A DNA stretch of 62,374 nt from an uncultured cyanobacterium (GTDB lineage Bacteria > Cyanobacteriota > Cyanobacteriia > PCC-6307 > Cyanobiaceae): assembly GCA_903856805.1 (NCBI GenBank), contig CAIOCZ010000148.1, forward strand, positions 1 through 62,374. The letters run 5' to 3'. The first letter of the stretch is position 1. The number at the start of each line of letters is the position of its first letter. The notes under the pieces were generated by a model. The model had not been told where the DNA came from and ran no database searches. It saw nothing but the letters and a program-made list of their open reading frames with translations. The translations under genes and the position numbers were made by a program. Of the stretch, positions 2,426 through 61,348 are shown piece by piece.

Positions 2426-4135
2426 TCAAGCCGCCAGGGGGTTGAGTCGGGCCAGCACCCCTTCCGCCAGTTTTCGGGGCGAAAAGGTACGGCGCAACAA
2501 CCGCAGCAGGGCCTGCAGGTCGTCGGTGTGGAGGCGGTCGTTGGCCACCAGGCTGATCAACAGGCGCTCGCGCAGGCTGCGGCCTTGACGGCTGAATAGC
2601 AGCCGCAGCCCATCCCGGGCCACGGGCAACAGCTCCAACCCCGGTCCATCGTGCTCCACCACCTCCAGCAGGTTCTCCAGTCGTTCGATCCGCAGCCGAC
2701 CGCTGGTGTCAAAGATGACCTCCAGCAACTTCTCGCGCATCTCGGCCGTATCCCCCGCCAGGAGACGCCGGGCCACGTAGGGATAGGCCACCTGGAGAAT
2801 CCGGAAGTTTGGATCCAGCCGCATGGCCATGCCTTCCTGGCTCACCACCGCTCGAATGATCAAGGCAAAGCGGGCCGGCACCCGGAAGGGATAGTCGTAC
2901 ATCAGCTCAGAAAAGCGATCGGTGATCGCCTTGAAGTTGAAGTTGCCGACATTTTCTCCGATCGCTCCACCCAGAACCAGCTCAAGGGCAGGAATGATCG
3001 GGGCTAGATCGGCCTTGGGATTAAGGAAACCTAGGGTGACAAAATCCTTCGCGAGTGCTTCGAAATCGCGATTGATCAGGTGCACGACAGCCCCCGTCAG
3101 CGTGAGCCGATCGGCATCGTTGATCGAATCCATCATGCCGAAATCTACATAGGCCATATGGCCCATTCCGTTGGTCTGACCGGGCAGGGCGAAGAGGTTG
3201 CCGGGATGGGGATCAGCGTGGAAATAACCGAATTCCAGCAGCTGTTGCAATCCGGAGATCACGCCAGTTCGTATTAACGCCGCCGGGTCGAGGTGATGGG
3301 CCTCCAGGTCACGACGGTTCTGGAGTTTCGTCCCATGAATCCAGCTGGTGGTCAGTACCCTCCGGCTGGAGAGACTTCGCTCCACCGACGGCACCGTGAC
3401 TTCGGGGTGGTGCAGGAACAGCTGGGCAAAGGTTTCGGCGTTGTCGGCCTCCTTGAGGTAGTCGATCTCGTTGAACAGGGTCTGGCCGAATTCATCGATG
3501 ATGGCCCCTAGTCCAAAACCTAGGTTGAGGGGCAGCCACGGCGCCGCCATGATCGCCAGGCTGCGGATGATCGTCAGATCACGACGCAGAATGAAGGGCA
3601 GCTCCGGCCGTTGCACCTTCACCGCCACCCAGCGGCCATCCGCCAATTGGGCCTTGTACACCTGACCCAGACTGGCCGCCGCGATTGGATAGCTGGGGAA
3701 CTCGGCGAACAGTTGCTGCGGTGGGGCCCCCAGTTCGGCTTCGATGAGTTGCTCGGCGATCCGCTGCGAAAAGGCCGGCAGGTCATCCTGGAGGCGGGTG
3801 AGCTCCTCCAACCAGTCGCGCCGCACCAGGTCGGGCCGGGTGGAGAGGGCCTGCCCCACCTTGATAAAGCAGGGGCCCAGGTCCGAGAGGGTGGTGAGGA
3901 TGCGCCGGGCCAGGCGTTGCTGGACGGCGGCGTCATCGCTGTTGCCTTGAATCGCCAGCACAATCACCAGGCTGGTGAGCCGCCAGAACACTGAGATCAG
4001 CCGGGGAATCCAAATCCAGGGTCGGATCAGGAGCCACTTCAGATCGGCCCTGGGGTTGTAGGCGGGGCTGGGAACGTCGCTCAGGGGGCTGCACGGTCGG
4101 TGCGCAGACTTTAGAAACCTTTCCCCGGCCGGCAT
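2426..4135 (-). CDS. ABC1 (AarF/UbiB/ADCK) atypical protein kinase
   Basis: About 569 residues. Family signatures are all visible: FIKVGQALSTRPD (KxGQ motif replacing a normal kinase N-lobe segment), AAASLGQVYKA (A-rich loop), VAVKVQRP (catalytic Lys), FGYFHADPHPGNLF (catalytic loop) and VDFGMMD (metal-binding DFG). Cyanobacterial and plastid members are linked to prenylquinone and lipid metabolism; the substrate here is unknown. The C-terminus carries a hydrophobic, membrane-associated region. Its ATG at 4135 shares a CATG tetranucleotide with the ATG of the divergent gene at 4134, so either true start could be further inside, and the two promoters must lie in the neighbouring coding sequences. 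Confidence 0.92.
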   Translation of the reverse strand: MPAGERFLKSAHRPCSPLSDVPSPAYNPRADLKWLLIRPWIWIPRLISVFWRLTSLVIVLAIQGNSDDAAVQQRLARRILTTLSDLGPCFIKVGQALSTRPDLVRRDWLEELTRLQDDLPAFSQRIAEQLIEAELGAPPQQLFAEFPSYPIAAASLGQVYKAQLADGRWVAVKVQRPELPFILRRDLTIIRSLAIMAAPWLPLNLGFGLGAIIDEFGQTLFNEIDYLKEADNAETFAQLFLHHPEVTVPSVERSLSSRRVLTTSWIHGTKLQNRRDLEAHHLDPAALIRTGVISGLQQLLEFGYFHADPHPGNLFALPGQTNGMGHMAYVDFGMMDSINDADRLTLTGAVVHLINRDFEALAKDFVTLGFLNPKADLAPIIPALELVLGGAIGENVGNFNFKAITDRFSELMYDYPFRVPARFALIIRAVVSQEGMAMRLDPNFRILQVAYPYVARRLLAGDTAEMREKLLEVIFDTSGRLRIERLENLLEVVEHDGPGLELLPVARDGLRLLFSRQGRSLRERLLISLVANDRLHTDDLQALLRLLRRTFSPRKLAEGVLARLNPLAA

Positions 4136-5534
4136 GACCCCCCGCAGCCAGCCCGCCAACCCTCTGCTGCAGCAGTTGTTGCTGCCCCCACCCCCCTTAC
4201 CGCTTCACCTGCCAGCCCACGGGCGCGGCCGCGGCCTGGCACCGGCGTTGTGGCGGCTGCTGCGACAGCCGCCCGGCCGTTGGGATCTCCCGGAACTGCC
4301 GGCCATCGGCGGCCCCCTGCAGTCGGAGGGGGCCGTGGCGGCGGCCCAGGCCCGGGCCGCCGATCTCCTGGGAGCCGAGCGTTGCTGGTTCGGCGTCAAT
4401 GGGGCCAGCGGTCTGCTGCAGGCCGCCCTGCTGGGGCTCGCTCCCCCCGGAAGCCGGGTGCTGTTGCCCCGGAACCTGCACCGCTCCCTGCTGCACGCCT
4501 GTGTGTTGGGGCAGCTGGAGCCCCTGATCGTTGATCTTCCCTTTGATCCGCTCACCGGCCTCTGGAGACCGCTGGATCAATCCCGGCTTGAACAGGTGTT
4601 GCGGGCGGCCGTGGCCGGTGGACCCGTCGCCGCTCTTGTGCTGGTGGATCCCACTTATCAGGGTCTGGGCGGAGATCTGGTGGCGCTAGTGGCAGCAGCC
4701 CATGCCGCGGGCGTGCCGGTGCTGGTGGATCAGGCCCATGGGGATGGCTCCGCCCTGGCGGCCGGGGCCGACCTGGTGGTGGTGTCCCTTCAGAAGGCGG
4801 CCGGAGGCCTGGCCCAGAGCGCTGCGCTCTGGGCCCAGGGCCCTCGCTGGGATCCGGTGGCCCTGGAGCGGGCCCTGCTCTGGTTGCAGACCTCCAGTCC
4901 CAGTGCCCTGCTGTTGGCCGCCGCCGCCGCCGCCATCGACCACCTGACCAGCGAGGCCGGTCGCCGCCAACGCCAACGGGCCCACCGGCGGGCCGGGCGG
5001 CTGCGGCAGCGCCTGGAGCGGGAGGGGTGGACCCTGGTGGCCAATGCCGATCCGCTCCGCTTGGTGGTGGCCACGGCCCCCGATGGGTTGGATGGCTTCC
5101 GTGCCGACGCCTGGCTGATGGCCCGTGGCGTGATCGTTGAATTGCCCGAGCCCGGCGCCCTCACGTTCACCCTGGGGCTTGAGCCCCCTCGCGCCCTTGA
5201 ACGGCGGCTGCCACCCGTTCTGGCCGGGTTGCGGCGGGCCCTGGGAGGTGCCGCCCTGCCGCCCTTTCCCCCCCCGCCCCTTCCCCTGCTCGCGGCCCTC
5301 GACCATCCCCTGGGGGAAGCCTGGCGAGCGGAAACCCAGACCGTGCCCCTGGCGGAGAGCGCCGGCCGCATCGCCGCCGAGCCGATCTGTCCCTATCCCC
5401 CCGGCATTCCCCTGCTGGTGCCCGGGGAGCGGATCGACTCAGCCCGGGCGACCTGGCTGGATCAGCAGCGGCGCCATTGGCCCGGACAGATCGCTGATAG
5501 CGTGAAGGTTGTGGCCGAACGTGGGGGGTTCTGA
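4134..5534 (+). CDS. Orn/Lys/Arg decarboxylase-family PLP-dependent protein (divergent)
   Basis: About 466 residues with the fold-type I aspartate-aminotransferase core of the ornithine/lysine/arginine decarboxylases. Landmarks are WFGVNGASGLLQAALLGLAP (cofactor loop), PRNLHRSLLHAC, VDPTYQGLGGDLVALVAAAH, VDQAHGDGSALAAGADLVVV and SLQKAAGGLAQSAAL (Schiff-base Lys). Classical members read DEAHG and S(T)HK, whereas here they are DQAHG and SLQK, so a different substrate or activity is possible. The long N-terminal wing domain of E. coli enzymes is absent, as in Bacillus YaaO-like forms. The stop overlaps the cbiT start (TGATG), and cdsA follows, forming a three-gene unit. Confidence 0.85.
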   Translation: MTPRSQPANPLLQQLLLPPPPLPLHLPAHGRGRGLAPALWRLLRQPPGRWDLPELPAIGGPLQSEGAVAAAQARAADLLGAERCWFGVNGASGLLQAALLGLAPPGSRVLLPRNLHRSLLHACVLGQLEPLIVDLPFDPLTGLWRPLDQSRLEQVLRAAVAGGPVAALVLVDPTYQGLGGDLVALVAAAHAAGVPVLVDQAHGDGSALAAGADLVVVSLQKAAGGLAQSAALWAQGPRWDPVALERALLWLQTSSPSALLLAAAAAAIDHLTSEAGRRQRQRAHRRAGRLRQRLEREGWTLVANADPLRLVVATAPDGLDGFRADAWLMARGVIVELPEPGALTFTLGLEPPRALERRLPPVLAGLRRALGGAALPPFPPPPLPLLAALDHPLGEAWRAETQTVPLAESAGRIAAEPICPYPPGIPLLVPGERIDSARATWLDQQRRHWPGQIADSVKVVAERGGF

Positions 5535-11337: not shown

Positions 11338-12051
11338 TCAGGCGCTGGCGAGGGATGCCGAAGTGGCGCGACGGAGCTGATGGCGCCGCAGGCGCCGGCT
11401 CCAACCGAAGGCCGTCCCTGCAGCCAACAGGGGCAGGGGCCCTGGGACGGCGGGGGCTTGCTCCTCAGGAATGACTTCCAGCTGCATCGAGATAAGAGCG
11501 TCAAACCGATTGCGATAGGTGACCCCAGCAAGATCAAAGCCGTTTTTTATCAAGATGCTTCCTGTTTGGCAGAAGGGTTTTTCGCATCCAAAAAATGTAT
11601 CGGATGGGGTGTCTCGATAAAAAACATTGAAATCACTTTTGAATTCGGCAGTTCTGCCATCGCTTGAGATAATTCCTCCGGCAGAGTTGATGGGGCTCCT
11701 CAGGAAAGAATTGACACTCCATTGATCGATGTGGAATGGGAGGATCGTGTCTCCAAAGACGTCAATGCTCACTCCGGAAATGTTCTCTGAGGTGAAAACA
11801 CTCCCTGGAGCTGCATCGATCTGCAGGACTCCAGTGGCCTTGAGGGAGGGATCAGTCGTGTTAGTGATCGACCAATCCATGGCTGGATTGCCCGACCAGT
11901 TGAATTGGTACCAGCGGGGAGCGGCGTTGGCTGGCGCTGCAGCCATAATCCCTAGACCAAGGCTCCCCAAAGCCATCAAGCTCAAGGCGCAAGGTTTAAA
12001 GAACGCCCTGAGTGTATTTGCGTGAAATCCGAGAAGATTCAGGCGGTGCAT
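11338..12051 (-). CDS. Secreted protein with a VPGPLP-type C-terminal sorting signal (PEP-CTERM-like)
   Basis: About 237 residues from ATG 12051 (TTG 12111 also in frame). It has a long signal peptide ending ...GIMAAAPANA and a beta-rich body of about 150 residues. The C-terminal anchor is VPGPLPLLAAGTAFGWSRRL followed by Arg-rich residues: a proline/glycine motif, a short hydrophobic stretch and a basic tail, as in PEP-CTERM proteins processed by exosortase. Two Cys (FFGCEKPFCQ) could form a disulfide. The gene begins 63 bases downstream of clpC and is lower in GC than its neighbours. The same anchor recurs at 59127-60032. Confidence 0.75.
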   Translation of the reverse strand: MHRLNLLGFHANTLRAFFKPCALSLMALGSLGLGIMAAAPANAAPRWYQFNWSGNPAMDWSITNTTDPSLKATGVLQIDAAPGSVFTSENISGVSIDVFGDTILPFHIDQWSVNSFLRSPINSAGGIISSDGRTAEFKSDFNVFYRDTPSDTFFGCEKPFCQTGSILIKNGFDLAGVTYRNRFDALISMQLEVIPEEQAPAVPGPLPLLAAGTAFGWSRRLRRHQLRRATSASLASA

Positions 12052-12081: not shown

Positions 12082-12114
12082 AAATTCTATCAGAGGTCTG
12101 GATTCCGTCAATTC

Positions 12115-14646
12115 TTAAGTTCCAGCACTCGCCAATTCAGGCATGGCAGGGAGAATTTGCTGTTTGCGGATCACCACCTGTTTGGAGTCATCCACATCAA
12201 CTAGGGCCGCATCGCCCTCCGTGATCCTGCCAGATAGGAACTCCTCTGCCAGAGAATCCTCCAACAGGCGCATGACGGCACGCCGCAGGGGGCGCGCTCC
12301 ATAGCTGGGGTTATAACCCTCTTCCACCAAGCGCTCCTTGAAGGCTTCCGTCACCGACAACCGGATTCCCTTTTCATTCATCCGAGAGAAGATCTCGCGT
12401 AACATGATCTCCGCGATCTCCTTGACTTCGTCGCGGCTCAATTGCCTAAAGACGATGATCTCATCGAGGCGATTAAGGAATTCGGGGCGGAAGTATTGCT
12501 TCAATTCCTCATTCACCAAGGATCGAATGCGGTTGTACTGAGTCTCTTCAACATCAGCACCGGAGAATTCGAAACCAAGGCCTCCACCACCCTTTTCAAT
12601 CACCTTGGAACCGATGTTCGAGGTCATGATGATGAGGGTGTTCTTGAAGTCCACCGTTCGACCTTTCGAATCGGTGAGTCTTCCGTCTTCCAGCAGCTGA
12701 AGGAGCAGGTTGAAGACATCGGGATGGGCTTTCTCAATCTCATCAAAGAGAACCACCGTGTAGGGACGTCTCCGGACGGCTTCGGTGAGCTGACCCCCCT
12801 CGTTGAAGCCCACATAACCTGGGGGCGAGCCGATCAGCTTGCTGACCGTGTGACGCTCCATGAACTCCGACATGTCGAGGCGAATCATCGCGTCTTCACT
12901 GCCGAAGAAATAGGTGGCGAGGGCTTTGGTGAGCTCGGTTTTACCCACCCCAGTGGGTCCGGAGAAGATGAAACTGGCTATGGGTCGGTTGGGATTTTTC
13001 AGGCCAACCCGGGCCCGTCGGATCGCCCGCGACACCGCCTTCACTGCCTCGTCCTGTCCAATCAGGCGCTGGTGAAGTGTGTCTTCCATGTGCAACAGCT
13101 TCACCGACTCGCTCTCGGTAAGTTTCTGCACTGGTACCCCGGTCCAGGACGCCACGATGTGGGCGATATCCTCTTCGGTGACCACGGGGGATCGGTTGAC
13201 TGCGAGCGATTCGCCGTTCATTTCAGAGATCGAAGAGGCGTCTGATTCAGAGGGCTCTTCGTCGCGGCGAGTTTGAAGAATAGTACGGATTTGTTCACGC
13301 AACTCGACCTCTTTGTCCCGTAGTTCACCCGCCTTGCTGAAGTCTTGGTCGCGTACTGCATCTTCTTTCTGCTTTTGAATATCCCTTAACTGCTTATCGA
13401 CCTCTTTGGCTTCAGGAGGAAGCTTGGAATTCATCAGGCGCACCCGGCTGCCAGCTTCATCAATCAGGTCGATCGCCTTGTCAGGTAAGAATCGGTCCGA
13501 GATGTAACGATCACCGAGGGTCGCAGCGGCTACCAAGGCTTCATCTGAAATTTTGAGTCGGTGATGCTGCTCGTAGCGTTCCCGCAGGCCGCGCAGGATT
13601 TCGATGGTGTCCTCCACGGAAGGTTCGCCCACCATCACAGGTTGAAAGCGTCGCTCCAAGGCGGCATCGCGTTCGATGTGTTTGCGGTATTCATCCAGGG
13701 TGGTGGCCCCGATGCACTGCAGTTCGCCTCGGGCTAGGGCCGGCTTGAGGATGTTGGCGGCATCGATGGCCCCCTCGGCGGCGCCGGCACCAATGAGGGT
13801 ATGGACTTCGTCGATCACCAAAATCACGTTTCCGGCGGACCGGATCTCTTCCATGATTTTCTTGAGCCGCTCTTCAAATTCGCCGCGGTACTTGGTGCCG
13901 GCCACCAGCAGGCCAATGTCCAAGGTAAGGACCCGTTTGCCCTCCAGGATGTCGGGCACATCCCCCTGGGTAATGCGCTGAGCCAGGCCTTCGGCGATGG
14001 CGGTTTTGCCCACGCCGGGTTCGCCGATTAGCACGGGATTGTTTTTGGTACGGCGCCCCAGAATCTGGATCACCCTGTCGATTTCGTTGTGGCGGCCGAC
14101 TACAGGGTCAAGCTTCGATTCTGCAGCGAGCTGGGTGAGATTGCTGCCGAATTCATCCAACGTGGGAGTTTTGGTCGATCCCTTGCCGCCACCACCGGAC
14201 GCGACCTCGGCCGTCTCCCCCAACATGCGAATCACCTGGGTGCGAACCTTGGCAAGATCCACGCCAAGGTTTTCCAGCACCCGGGCGGCCACCCCTTCCC
14301 CTTCACGAATCAGACCGAGGAGCAGGTGCTCGGTGCCGATGTAGTTGTGACCGAGTTGGCGAGCTTCCTCCAGGGAAAGTTCCAGGACGCGCTTGGCACG
14401 CGGGGTGAAGGGGATTTCCACCGCCACGAAACCCGAACCGCGGCCAATGATTTTCTCCACCTCGACGCGGGCGTCCTTGAGGTTGACCCCCATCGACTTG
14501 AGCACCTTGGCGGCCACGCCCGTTCCCTCGCCGATCAAACCGAGGAGGATCTGCTCGGTGCCAACGAAATTGTGCCCGAGGCGTCGGGCCTCTTCCTGGG
14601 CCAGCATGATCACCTTGATGGCCTTTTCGGTAAACCGCTCGAACAT
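12115..14646 (-). CDS. clpC: ATP-dependent Clp protease ATPase subunit ClpC
   Basis: 843 residues, full length for the HSP100 unfoldase that feeds ClpP in cyanobacteria and plastids. Order of parts: two Clp-N repeats (residues 1-143), AAA1 with Walker [16 protein letters not shown] (~208) and Walker [16 protein letters not shown], a UVR/middle domain (~425-460, [20 protein letters not shown]) that distinguishes ClpC from ClpB, and AAA2 with Walker [17 protein letters not shown] (~555) and a C-terminal D2-small domain. It lies downstream of rimI on the same strand, an arrangement common in picocyanobacteria. Confidence 0.98.
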
Positions 14647-59126: not shown

Positions 59127-60032
59127 TCAAACAGAGGCGTTCTTGATCCGGGCACGCAGGCGGCGGGAGAAACCGAAGGCCATGCCTACGCCAAAAATGG
59201 GCAAAGGGCCGGGTACGCTATAAGGCGTTGTAACAGGAAGAGCGGAAAGTGTAGGGTCTACCATCATGTAGCTGTTACCCAACTTATCCTGCAACAGGAT
59301 GGCATTACCTTCCGAGATATTGTCAAATTGCTGTGCCAACTGCGCAACGCTATAACTCCAACCTGTTGGCAAGCCCATTACGCTGGTCATATAATCCACG
59401 TCTTGGAGATTCTCATATGTCAGGCCTGGGTCTATGAACCTCGCGTAGGACTGCATCACGTAGAGATTATCTGATGGATCTAGCAATTGAAAGATCAGGT
59501 TGTTTGCGAAATAAGTCCACGTCGCATTCCTTACCGCGCTCGACGGAATATAGGCAAGACCAGTAACATCTGTATTGAAAGCCGCGAAACCAAAGGTAGT
59601 AGTAGATTCACCTGTTACATTGGGATAGGGTACATCGAGGACAAGAGACGTAGTAGCTCCAGTAGGTGCCGAGACTCCTTGATCGTAAATCCAATTACGC
59701 GGCCAGTCCAAGATGATGTCATAGGCACCCGAAGGCATCCCATACGAATTCCCTGCGGGATATGTAGCGTTGTAGCTATCTATAATGGTCTGACCTTGCA
59801 AAGCCAAATAATTAGGGCAGGTATTATACCCTGTAGTATTGAAAATCGGCAGAGATGTAGAGGTTGAGACTTTCATGGCAACCTCACAATATTGGTAATT
59901 GAACATATCTGGCGGGTAACTTGGGCCTGACGAGGAAACTGGGTATGCGGCCATCGCAGCAGAAGCTGAGAAAAAAGTCGTCGCAAACAACGCAACTTGT
60001 GTTGCTTTGGCAACAAAAAAGCGACTTACCAT
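59127..60032 (-). CDS. Secreted protein with VPGPLP-type C-terminal sorting signal (PEP-CTERM-like)
   Basis: 301 residues. Signal peptide with AFSASA-like end (LFATTFFSASAAMA). The mature body (~220 residues) is rich in Tyr, Asn, Ser and Thr. Two Cys (QYCEVAM, YNTCPN) may pair. C-terminal anchor, residues ~272-301: SVPGPLPIFGVGMAFGFSRR, then LRARIKNASV; a Pro-Gly motif, hydrophobic stretch and basic tail, nearly identical in pattern to 11338-12051. It is expected to be exported and processed by an exosortase-like enzyme. GC is lower than in the flanking backbone. It has its own terminator and an A/T-rich upstream region. Confidence 0.8.
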   Translation of the reverse strand: MVSRFFVAKATQVALFATTFFSASAAMAAYPVSSSGPSYPPDMFNYQYCEVAMKVSTSTSLPIFNTTGYNTCPNYLALQGQTIIDSYNATYPAGNSYGMPSGAYDIILDWPRNWIYDQGVSAPTGATTSLVLDVPYPNVTGESTTTFGFAAFNTDVTGLAYIPSSAVRNATWTYFANNLIFQLLDPSDNLYVMQSYARFIDPGLTYENLQDVDYMTSVMGLPTGWSYSVAQLAQQFDNISEGNAILLQDKLGNSYMMVDPTLSALPVTTPYSVPGPLPIFGVGMAFGFSRRLRARIKNASV

Positions 60033-60130: not shown

Positions 60131-60202
60131 CAGGTCATCAAGCTGTGCTGGTCAGCCAAATCGATTACAAAGATTTTGCAGGAACGTGTTCCGATCAAGG
60201 TC

Positions 60203-61348
60203 ATGACCAAAGTTCAACCAAAGATTGAGTCCGTACCTAAGCCCTTGCAGACCACCACAACGTATTATTCCCCATGGGTCTATGCGCCCAACGGCGTCAC
60301 GAGCCCGATCAATTTTGTTCAGGGGATTGGGGCTGGTACCACAAAGAACACTTACACCATCGTTGGCACCTACGGCCAGCTCAATAATGGAGCCTTGGGG
60401 GTTGTCTATCAAGGTGCGATCAACGGCACCAATACCACGCAAGGTTCAGGACCGGGCACCTGGACCCCGATGGTTGTGCCCAAAAGTTTTGGATCCCTGG
60501 GCACCAGCATCTATGGAGTGCATAAAAAAGATGATGGTGAGTTCAATCTGGTTGGCACCTTCGTGTCTGCCAGCCAAACCACCAATGTGGCAGGGACCAC
60601 GATTAATAATACCCTTGGCTTCTACTACACGGGAAAGATTACAAGTATCCCCAAGGACAAGGCCTTTAAGAGCTTTCAGGCTCGGGACCCGATTACCGGT
60701 CGCCTCGCTAACGAGACCTATCTCCATAGTGTAAGTGGCGGCTTGGCTGCGGGCAACTATGACTTCTTTGGTGAAGGCAAAGGCACCGGTACGGCCTTTG
60801 TCGTTGACACCAAGACTGGCAAACAGACCAATCTCAGGTATAACGATTTTGCCCTTTCCCATAGTGTCTATGGGATCTGGTCGAATACGAATCGACACTA
60901 CACCGTGGCCGGGGGCGAATCGAATGTGCTCGGTACGCTGAAGCCTGGGATCAATAACGGTCCGTCGCTTGGCGATGCCACCTTGGCTGATTACGACTCC
61001 ATCACAGGCAATGTGACAAATACTCATACCTACCGCTACCCCGGCCAGGGTGGCGCCACCTACGAAACCCATTTCGAAGGAATTTGGTCTGACGGGAAGG
61101 GGCTTTACAAGCTTCCCTTTTGGGCCTTTGGACCCAACGATCTAAGCGTTTCAGGGTTGGCGATTGTGAAACGGCAAAAGAATGGAGACTTCAGTTCTCA
61201 AGCTTCCTGGATTACGTTTGACAACCCGCCTGGTTACAACCGCTTCGCCTCCTCCGTTTGGGATGAGGCCAGTCTAGGCTCCCTACCCAACAGCTCTGAC
61301 CCCTCGCAACCCCCCTCCAGTTATGCAGCTTTGACACATATTATTTAG
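60203..61348 (+). CDS. HAF-like repeat protein without signal peptide
   Basis: About 381 residues from ATG 60203; a TTG at 60176 and an open frame to 60110 allow an earlier start, but none gives a signal peptide. The body holds about five imperfect units of ~45-55 residues ending in turns such as TIVGTYGQLNNGALGVVYQG, LVGTFVSASQTTNVAGTT, FFGEGKGTGTAFVVDTKTG and SVYGIWSNTNRHYTVAGGES. The pattern (G-I/V ... V-G-T/G ... G-F/V-Y-x-G) resembles HAF or beta-propeller-type extracellular repeats. Very rich in Gly, Asn and Thr. Divergent from the secreted protein, with a shared palindrome between. Confidence 0.6.
   Translation: MTKVQPKIESVPKPLQTTTTYYSPWVYAPNGVTSPINFVQGIGAGTTKNTYTIVGTYGQLNNGALGVVYQGAINGTNTTQGSGPGTWTPMVVPKSFGSLGTSIYGVHKKDDGEFNLVGTFVSASQTTNVAGTTINNTLGFYYTGKITSIPKDKAFKSFQARDPITGRLANETYLHSVSGGLAAGNYDFFGEGKGTGTAFVVDTKTGKQTNLRYNDFALSHSVYGIWSNTNRHYTVAGGESNVLGTLKPGINNGPSLGDATLADYDSITGNVTNTHTYRYPGQGGATYETHFEGIWSDGKGLYKLPFWAFGPNDLSVSGLAIVKRQKNGDFSSQASWITFDNPPGYNRFASSVWDEASLGSLPNSSDPSQPPSSYAALTHII

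Follow-up and report, generated by a model that had tools for sequence, protein, structure and literature searches.

Two proteins with a common C-terminal tail

The window, by which we mean the whole stretch of 62,374 nucleotides analysed here, carries on its minus strand two open reading frames (11338-12051 and 59127-60032) that have unrelated bodies and share a tail with the consensus V-P-G-P-L-P-(hydrophobic)-F-G-x-S-R-R-L-R. The original prediction for this DNA had described two near-identical tails on unrelated bodies, and this was borne out by whole-protein BLASTP of the two products (cargo 1 and cargo 2), which aligned the tail region alone (37 columns, E 1e-8). The two tails, VPGPLPLLAAGTAFGWSRRLRRH and VPGPLPIFGVGMAFGFSRRLRAR, are 65% identical over 23 residues, and no other VPGPLP close to a C-terminus was found in the remaining frames of the window.

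Cargo 1 (11338..12051, minus strand) is a predicted secreted protein of 237 aa with an ATG start and an orphan body. Its putative sorting tail lies at 11380..11448 (minus strand) and matches the tail profile with 53.6 bits (E 1.1e-13). A signal peptide is predicted at 11923..12051 (minus strand) by a hydrophobicity score and by eye, with cleavage probably occurring after ...APANA at residue 43. A TTG upstream, at 12111, is an alternative start that would give a protein of 257 aa. The gene follows clpC (12115-14646, minus strand) on the same strand, with 63 bp between the clpC stop codon and the cargo 1 ATG. Scanning this gap revealed no terminator-like site but did reveal a candidate promoter-like site (TTGACG-16-TAGAAT, 12084..12111, minus strand; 10/12 in a consensus scan), so cargo 1 may be driven by its own promoter. 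The protein has no match in Pfam, and relatives of its body are absent from the 249 other genomes of the order and from phages. The gene had been called isolated, a description that holds, as neither an exosortase nor a further tail gene lies nearby.

Cargo 2 (59127..60032, minus strand), recognised as an open reading frame and by BLASTP, is 301 aa long, is predicted to be secreted, and carries the tail on a body unrelated to that of cargo 1. The tail is found at 59148..59216 (minus strand; profile match 50.6 bits, E 9.9e-13), and a signal peptide is predicted by the same means at 59949..60032 (minus strand), with cleavage likely after ...SASAAMA at residue 28. Its predicted structure has a mean pLDDT of 65.6 and resembles no solved fold at E <= 0.001, and searching the cargo 2 family against Pfam gave chance-level matches only. 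A divergent ORF of 390 aa without a Pfam match (60176-61348, plus strand) adjoins cargo 2.

A tail family and one exosortase in the genome

The genome from which the window comes (3.0 Mb in 185 contigs) was searched with a profile built from 13 such tails, giving 17 matches at E <= 1.8e-6 and 1 weak match at E 0.024. At the level of DNA, a degenerate pattern of the tail occurs at 4 places in the genome and at 0 with the reversed control; a looser pattern gives 14 places against 3. The tail is thus repeated in this genome more often than chance would allow. A family of cargo proteins had been predicted, and such a family of 17-18 tailed proteins is indeed present, its bodies mostly unrelated: just two related pairs exist among the 18, and Pfam can name few of them (one CHRD and one YHYH). 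As in PEP-CTERM proteins, a hydrophobic stretch and a C-terminal basic cluster end many unrelated proteins, and an N-terminal signal peptide is found on the cargo, convincing in 12/18 by a simple hydrophobicity score and reading; in the remainder the start is truncated or doubtful. The near-invariant Pro-Glu-Pro of PEP-CTERM tails is missing from the 18, in which residue 3 is Gly in 16, Ala in 1 and Ser in 1, with Glu in 0/18.

The original prediction also called for an exosortase, and the genome encodes one, a protein of 303 aa on contig C142 that matches PF09721 with about 105-106 bits (cut-off 25.7). It belongs to the superfamily by TIGR04178 as well (45.6 bits, cut-off 23), and its triad is intact, with Cys194, Arg240 (in Asn-x-x-Arg) and His263; across the 52 loci of the order, the Cys, Arg and His are conserved in 52, 52 and 51, respectively. 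Both an exosortase homologue and further tailed proteins are therefore present, and neither of the two absences that were to speak against the prediction was encountered. The expectation of an EpsH/XrtC-type enzyme stood only in part: an exosortase is there, but the typed model nearest to it is not XrtC but cyanoexosortase A, CrtA (TIGR03763), at 134.3 bits, below the curated cut-off of 150. Ten other exosortases of the order score 63-112 bits with this model. The structure of the enzyme is predicted with confidence (mean pLDDT 90.2); no relative was found in the PDB by sequence, nor by fold at E <= 0.001, and a comparison with plasmids gave no match.

The exosortase gene lies inside a polysaccharide locus with an EpsE-like export protein, a tyrosine autokinase, a small phosphatase and a sugar enzyme of polysaccharide biosynthesis, together with further genes that we take to encode a WecA-like enzyme and a glycosyltransferase. 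Directly downstream is a partner gene of 232 aa. Members of the partner family adjoin the exosortase in 30/52 loci by BLAST and are present in 36/52 exosortase loci by profile, these being 36/41 loci of the PGP clade (defined below) against 0/11 of a third group. TIGR04153, the CrtA-associated protein, matches only 2/17 partner members (best E 1.8e-4), and the partner profile in turn matches the true TIGR04153 protein of locus L285 at E 1.6e-4; judged by sequence, the partner family appears distantly related to TIGR04153. The L285 protein itself (3996-4727, minus strand) scores 129.9 bits with TIGR04153. Gln135, Cys137 and Cys184 are invariant in the partner family (alignment A2). In two loci, L128 (genome G040) and L224 (Synechococcus sp. 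CCY 0621), a stop codon interrupts the exosortase frame ahead of the His motif. The enzyme there may be broken or recoded, or the break may be a sequencing error; G040, where the in-frame TAG is accompanied by 16 tails in the genome, is counted against our main reading.

Tail dialects, enzyme clades and their distribution

The distribution of the tail can be compared with that of the enzyme. In one sample of 250 genomes from the order, with a tail threshold of E <= 1e-4, PF09721 was found in 48 genomes and the tail in 36, and 36/36 tail genomes fell within the 48; the tail is thus confined to exosortase genomes in this sample, as is characteristic of PEP-CTERM. Within the genus of the window, tail and exosortase are both found in the 25 listed genomes, which hold 5-34 tails each (median 16). 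Outside the genus, 11/11 tail genomes lie within the 23/225 that have an exosortase, with a hypergeometric probability of 9e-13 that ignores kinship. In a sample of 388 genomes from the class the tail was found in 8, of which 7 belong to the same family as the window and 1 is a weak partial match. Two genomes are counted against the pairing. G136 has one strong PGPLP tail (C3:166796-166864; L183), and the only exosortase found there is of the other clade, while G182 has a PGP-clade enzyme and lacks a strong tail. The idea that every exosortase of the order is paired with the PGPLP tail was tried and rejected, as 11 rows form a clade with other tails and no partner gene.

Relatives of cargo 2 provide a natural test. 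The body is found in 10/250 genomes, its own included, in 11 copies. The four close copies (G000, G235 and two in G167) are tailed, and an exosortase is present. Copies in G190 and G203, 32% and 30% identical, stop at the point where the tail would begin, and no exosortase was found in either genome in the scan of 250 order genomes. Five more distant copies are also without the tail: G163 and G173 have no exosortase, G063 and G169 have the other exosortase clade, and G164 possesses the enzyme as well as tails. This final case, counted against our reading, indicates that an absent tail does not always mean an absent enzyme.

Physical proximity was assessed in the same way. The profile finds tail genes next to the exosortase in 6/52 loci: three each in L154 and L151, two each in L140 and L119, and one each in L150 and L117. 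Over the 40 loci from tail-bearing genomes, the expected number is about 1.9 tails, a figure that is only a guide because cargo genes may cluster. At L151 and L154 the exosortase is a second copy, and the single-copy exosortase loci of the window's own genus, where the stretch read contains no tail gene, count against the association. A compact example is found in an uncultured Thiodictyon MAG of the Chromatiaceae (CAILVI010000028.1; L235:4720-8542), where cargo, HpsJ-like protein, exosortase, partner and cargo follow one another in one direction, an order shared by L117. Both cargo tails there are in the cyanobacterial dialect, with VPAPLP or TPAPLP and ILGVVAAFGWSR[QK]LRRR. Neighbouring genes match RimK, lipoprotein signal peptidase and isoleucyl-tRNA synthetase; to us these look proteobacterial, and the genes upstream look like ExeA/GspB. 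Going by sequence, a purple sulfur bacterium has apparently acquired the module, a transfer between phyla, unless the contig was mis-binned.

The closest known tail is the cyanobacterial PEP-CTERM tail TIGR04155, whose layout VPEPLTILGS..ALGFGALFKRK is matched by the PGPLP tails position by position. When aligned, VPEPLTILGSGTALGFGALFKRK-type and VPGPLPILGAGAAFGWSRRLRRR-type tails run parallel, residue for residue, up to the ending. The differences are P-G-P for P-E-P (Glu to Gly), Pro for Thr6 and a length three residues shorter. From P-x-P to the basic cluster there are 13 residues in 83/84 tails, against 16-17 in 26/27 VPEP tails; because the 84 tails were selected by a pattern that fixes several positions, the tally can inform on nothing beyond the spacing and the columns left free. 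So short a hydrophobic stretch, spanning 13 residues between P-x-P and the first Arg, is itself counted against our main reading. TIGR04155 scores over its cut-off in 80/319 class genomes, 0 of the 80 in the window's family, and in 1/250 order genomes. In the window's genome it has no match at E <= 0.01, and against the cargo proteins themselves it gives weak matches to 3/18 (best E 6.9e-4); the corresponding figure for TIGR02595 is 1/18, at E 0.098.

Enzymes divide along similar lines. Twelve exosortases were found near VPEP tails, of which the nine scanned score 217-319 bits as CrtA (TIGR03763). Position 154 is an acid in 12/12 VPEP-linked enzymes against 0/53 order enzymes, L235 included; position 261 is Tyr in the same 12/12 and Phe in 51/52 order enzymes (again including L235) that have a letter there. 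Another comparison of enzymes drew on 21/42 of the PGP clade and the 12 VPEP-linked ones found, with the duplicate L285 excluded. An Asn after the catalytic Cys was also considered as a mark of the dialect and was rejected, as it is found in 31/42 PGP-clade rows, the others having S, T, A or G.

In a tree of 50 exosortase rows, which omits 15 near copies from the 52 order loci, VPEP-linked, PGP and third-group enzymes are separate; the PGP and RRRY labels were assigned from earlier clades, so the fact that each forms a single clade is not independent evidence. Every exosortase with an adjacent tail that was read (28/28) falls in the clade of that tail type. Only these rows, labelled from the tail itself, supply independent evidence (10 PGP-type, 6 RRRY-type and 12 VPEP), and 4/28 of the adjacent tails came from eye-guided patterns instead of a low-E profile match. 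As far as the sequences tell, the clade of the enzyme and the dialect of the tail change together. Third-group tails resemble VPSPFS...LRRRY, and a tail of this third type, e.g. VPSPFSAVAVAPFLACLAKLRRRY, adjoins 6/11 exosortases of the second clade (L143, L152, L159, L161, L163 and L165), none of whose 11 loci has a partner gene. In L160, L162 and L166, from three very small genomes (1.5-1.7 Mb) of genus g2, the exosortase is fast-evolving and one diverged tail protein lies nearby, e.g. TPGPLPILGFIPFITYSRKIKRK.

A probable sorting signal without Glu

We think it very probable that the PGPLP tail is a Glu-less sorting signal of the PEP-CTERM kind in the Cyanobium/Synechococcus group, read by a divergent CrtA-like exosortase. 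The suggestion that the tail is a sorting signal had come with the original prediction and is supported by the family of tails in the genome, the exosortase and their co-occurrence. At the level of sequence, the support comes from unrelated bodies with one tail in common, from the signal peptides that many cargoes carry, from an enzyme whose triad is intact and which lies among polysaccharide genes, and from co-occurrence; further support comes from adjacency in some genomes and the Thiodictyon module, the joint change of clade and tail, and tail-less relatives in two enzyme-less genomes. The steps of such a system can be proposed from what is described in reports on EpsH/PEP-CTERM (PMC1569441) and on CrtB of Nostoc (PMC12188702). 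Cargo would cross the inner membrane by means of its signal peptide, and the hydrophobic part of the tail would then keep it membrane-bound, leaving the SRRLRR cluster on the inner side. Through Cys194, Arg240 and His263, the exosortase may recognise P-G-P-L-P and cut at or near it; an acceptor would then receive the body, which would be exported to the polysaccharide-coated surface or attached there.

In the case of EpsH/PEP-CTERM, the source describes many tailed proteins for each membrane enzyme with Cys, Asn-x-x-Arg and His, polysaccharide genes nearby, and a tail gained and lost as a module (PMC1569441). The pairing, the enzyme residues, the polysaccharide context and the modular gain and loss of the tail are alike here, and the near-invariant Pro-Glu-Pro motif of that system is absent. 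CrtB of Nostoc punctiforme is encoded in a locus for polysaccharide export, with the gene of a protein of unknown function downstream, an arrangement found likewise here; genetic evidence links this cyanobacterial exosortase to the sorting of exoproteins with tails, its cargoes are described as P-E-P proteins, and tail removal was not directly seen in that work (PMC12188702). With the CrtB model, the enzyme described here scores 37.7 bits against a cut-off of 300. The CrtA system is closer, with a partner gene directly downstream of the enzyme and an HpsJ-like protein in some loci, but the enzyme falls short of TIGR03763 and lies in a separate clade, the partner reaches at best 21.6 with TIGR04153 (cut-off 100), and the HpsJ-like protein at best 97.9 with HpsJ-like A (NF050013; cut-off 140). 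The system works like the PEP-CTERM/exosortase systems and appears related to them by descent; because it lacks the P-E-P motif and falls short of the model cut-offs, we treat it as a variant of its own and not as a PEP-CTERM member. The variant is unnamed in the libraries searched, and we found no description of the VPGPLP tail in a literature search judged by titles and the starts of abstracts that covered few subscription journals.

Other explanations must be weighed against this one. The tail has the make-up of a plain membrane anchor, a hydrophobic stretch with a basic stop-transfer cluster, and its processing is so far only predicted. Such an anchor would have no need of a fixed P-G-P-L-P, of F-G-x-S-R or of a constant 13-residue spacing, nor of an exosortase in 36/36 tail genomes or next to the tail gene, and we regard it as very improbable that the tail is an anchor and nothing else. 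If the tail is processed, the enzyme might instead be another intramembrane protease of the rhomboid or CPBP type, with the exosortase correlation a by-product of lineage or lifestyle. GlyGly-CTERM/rhomboid and MYXO-CTERM/CPBP pairs are reported to exist (PMC3237569, PMC11980579), and relatedness does remain in the co-occurrence figure. Tail genes adjoin the exosortase, however, and both have apparently moved jointly into the Thiodictyon MAG; the tail is homologous to the VPEP tail that adjoins CrtA in other cyanobacteria, and the MYXO-CTERM model of NCBIfam, in a scan of tail models alone, gave 1/18 cargoes at a best E of 0.89. We regard a protease of this sort as very improbable too.

It could also be argued that this is an ordinary PEP-CTERM/CrtA system whose sequence has merely drifted, with no distinct dialect. 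The position-by-position match to the VPEP layout and the weak TIGR04155 matches to three of the cargoes speak for drift. Drift accounts poorly for the complete lack of Glu in the 18 tails, for the near-absence of TIGR04155 from the order when a quarter or so of the class genomes pass, none of them in this family, for a spacing fixed at a shorter value than in VPEP tails, or for a separate exosortase clade without acid 154 and Tyr 261. Mere drift is, in our judgement, rather unlikely.

With the Glu-less sorting signal as the preferred reading, a broader proposal, which we hold to be somewhat better than even, is that the exosortase code is not fixed. A divergent CrtA system, made up of enzyme, partner, an HpsJ-like protein in places and tens of cargoes, would have switched from P-E-P to P-G-P-L-P, its enzyme losing acid 154 and the Tyr at the second position ahead of the catalytic His; a second clade would have made a third dialect (P-S/G/A-P ... 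RRRY); and the whole module, cargo included, would be movable between phyla, as the Thiodictyon MAG suggests. If the recognition code was switched in this way, the Glu of PEP-CTERM would set specificity and not be required for catalysis. A sorting system with 5-34 substrates per genome in the 25 genomes of the genus has been missed by curated tail models, and curated enzyme models leave these exosortases of small cyanobacteria untyped. Natural pairs of tail and enzyme (VPEP, VPGPLP and the RRRY type) make it possible to test directly, by swapping tails and enzymes, how the tag is recognised by an exosortase.
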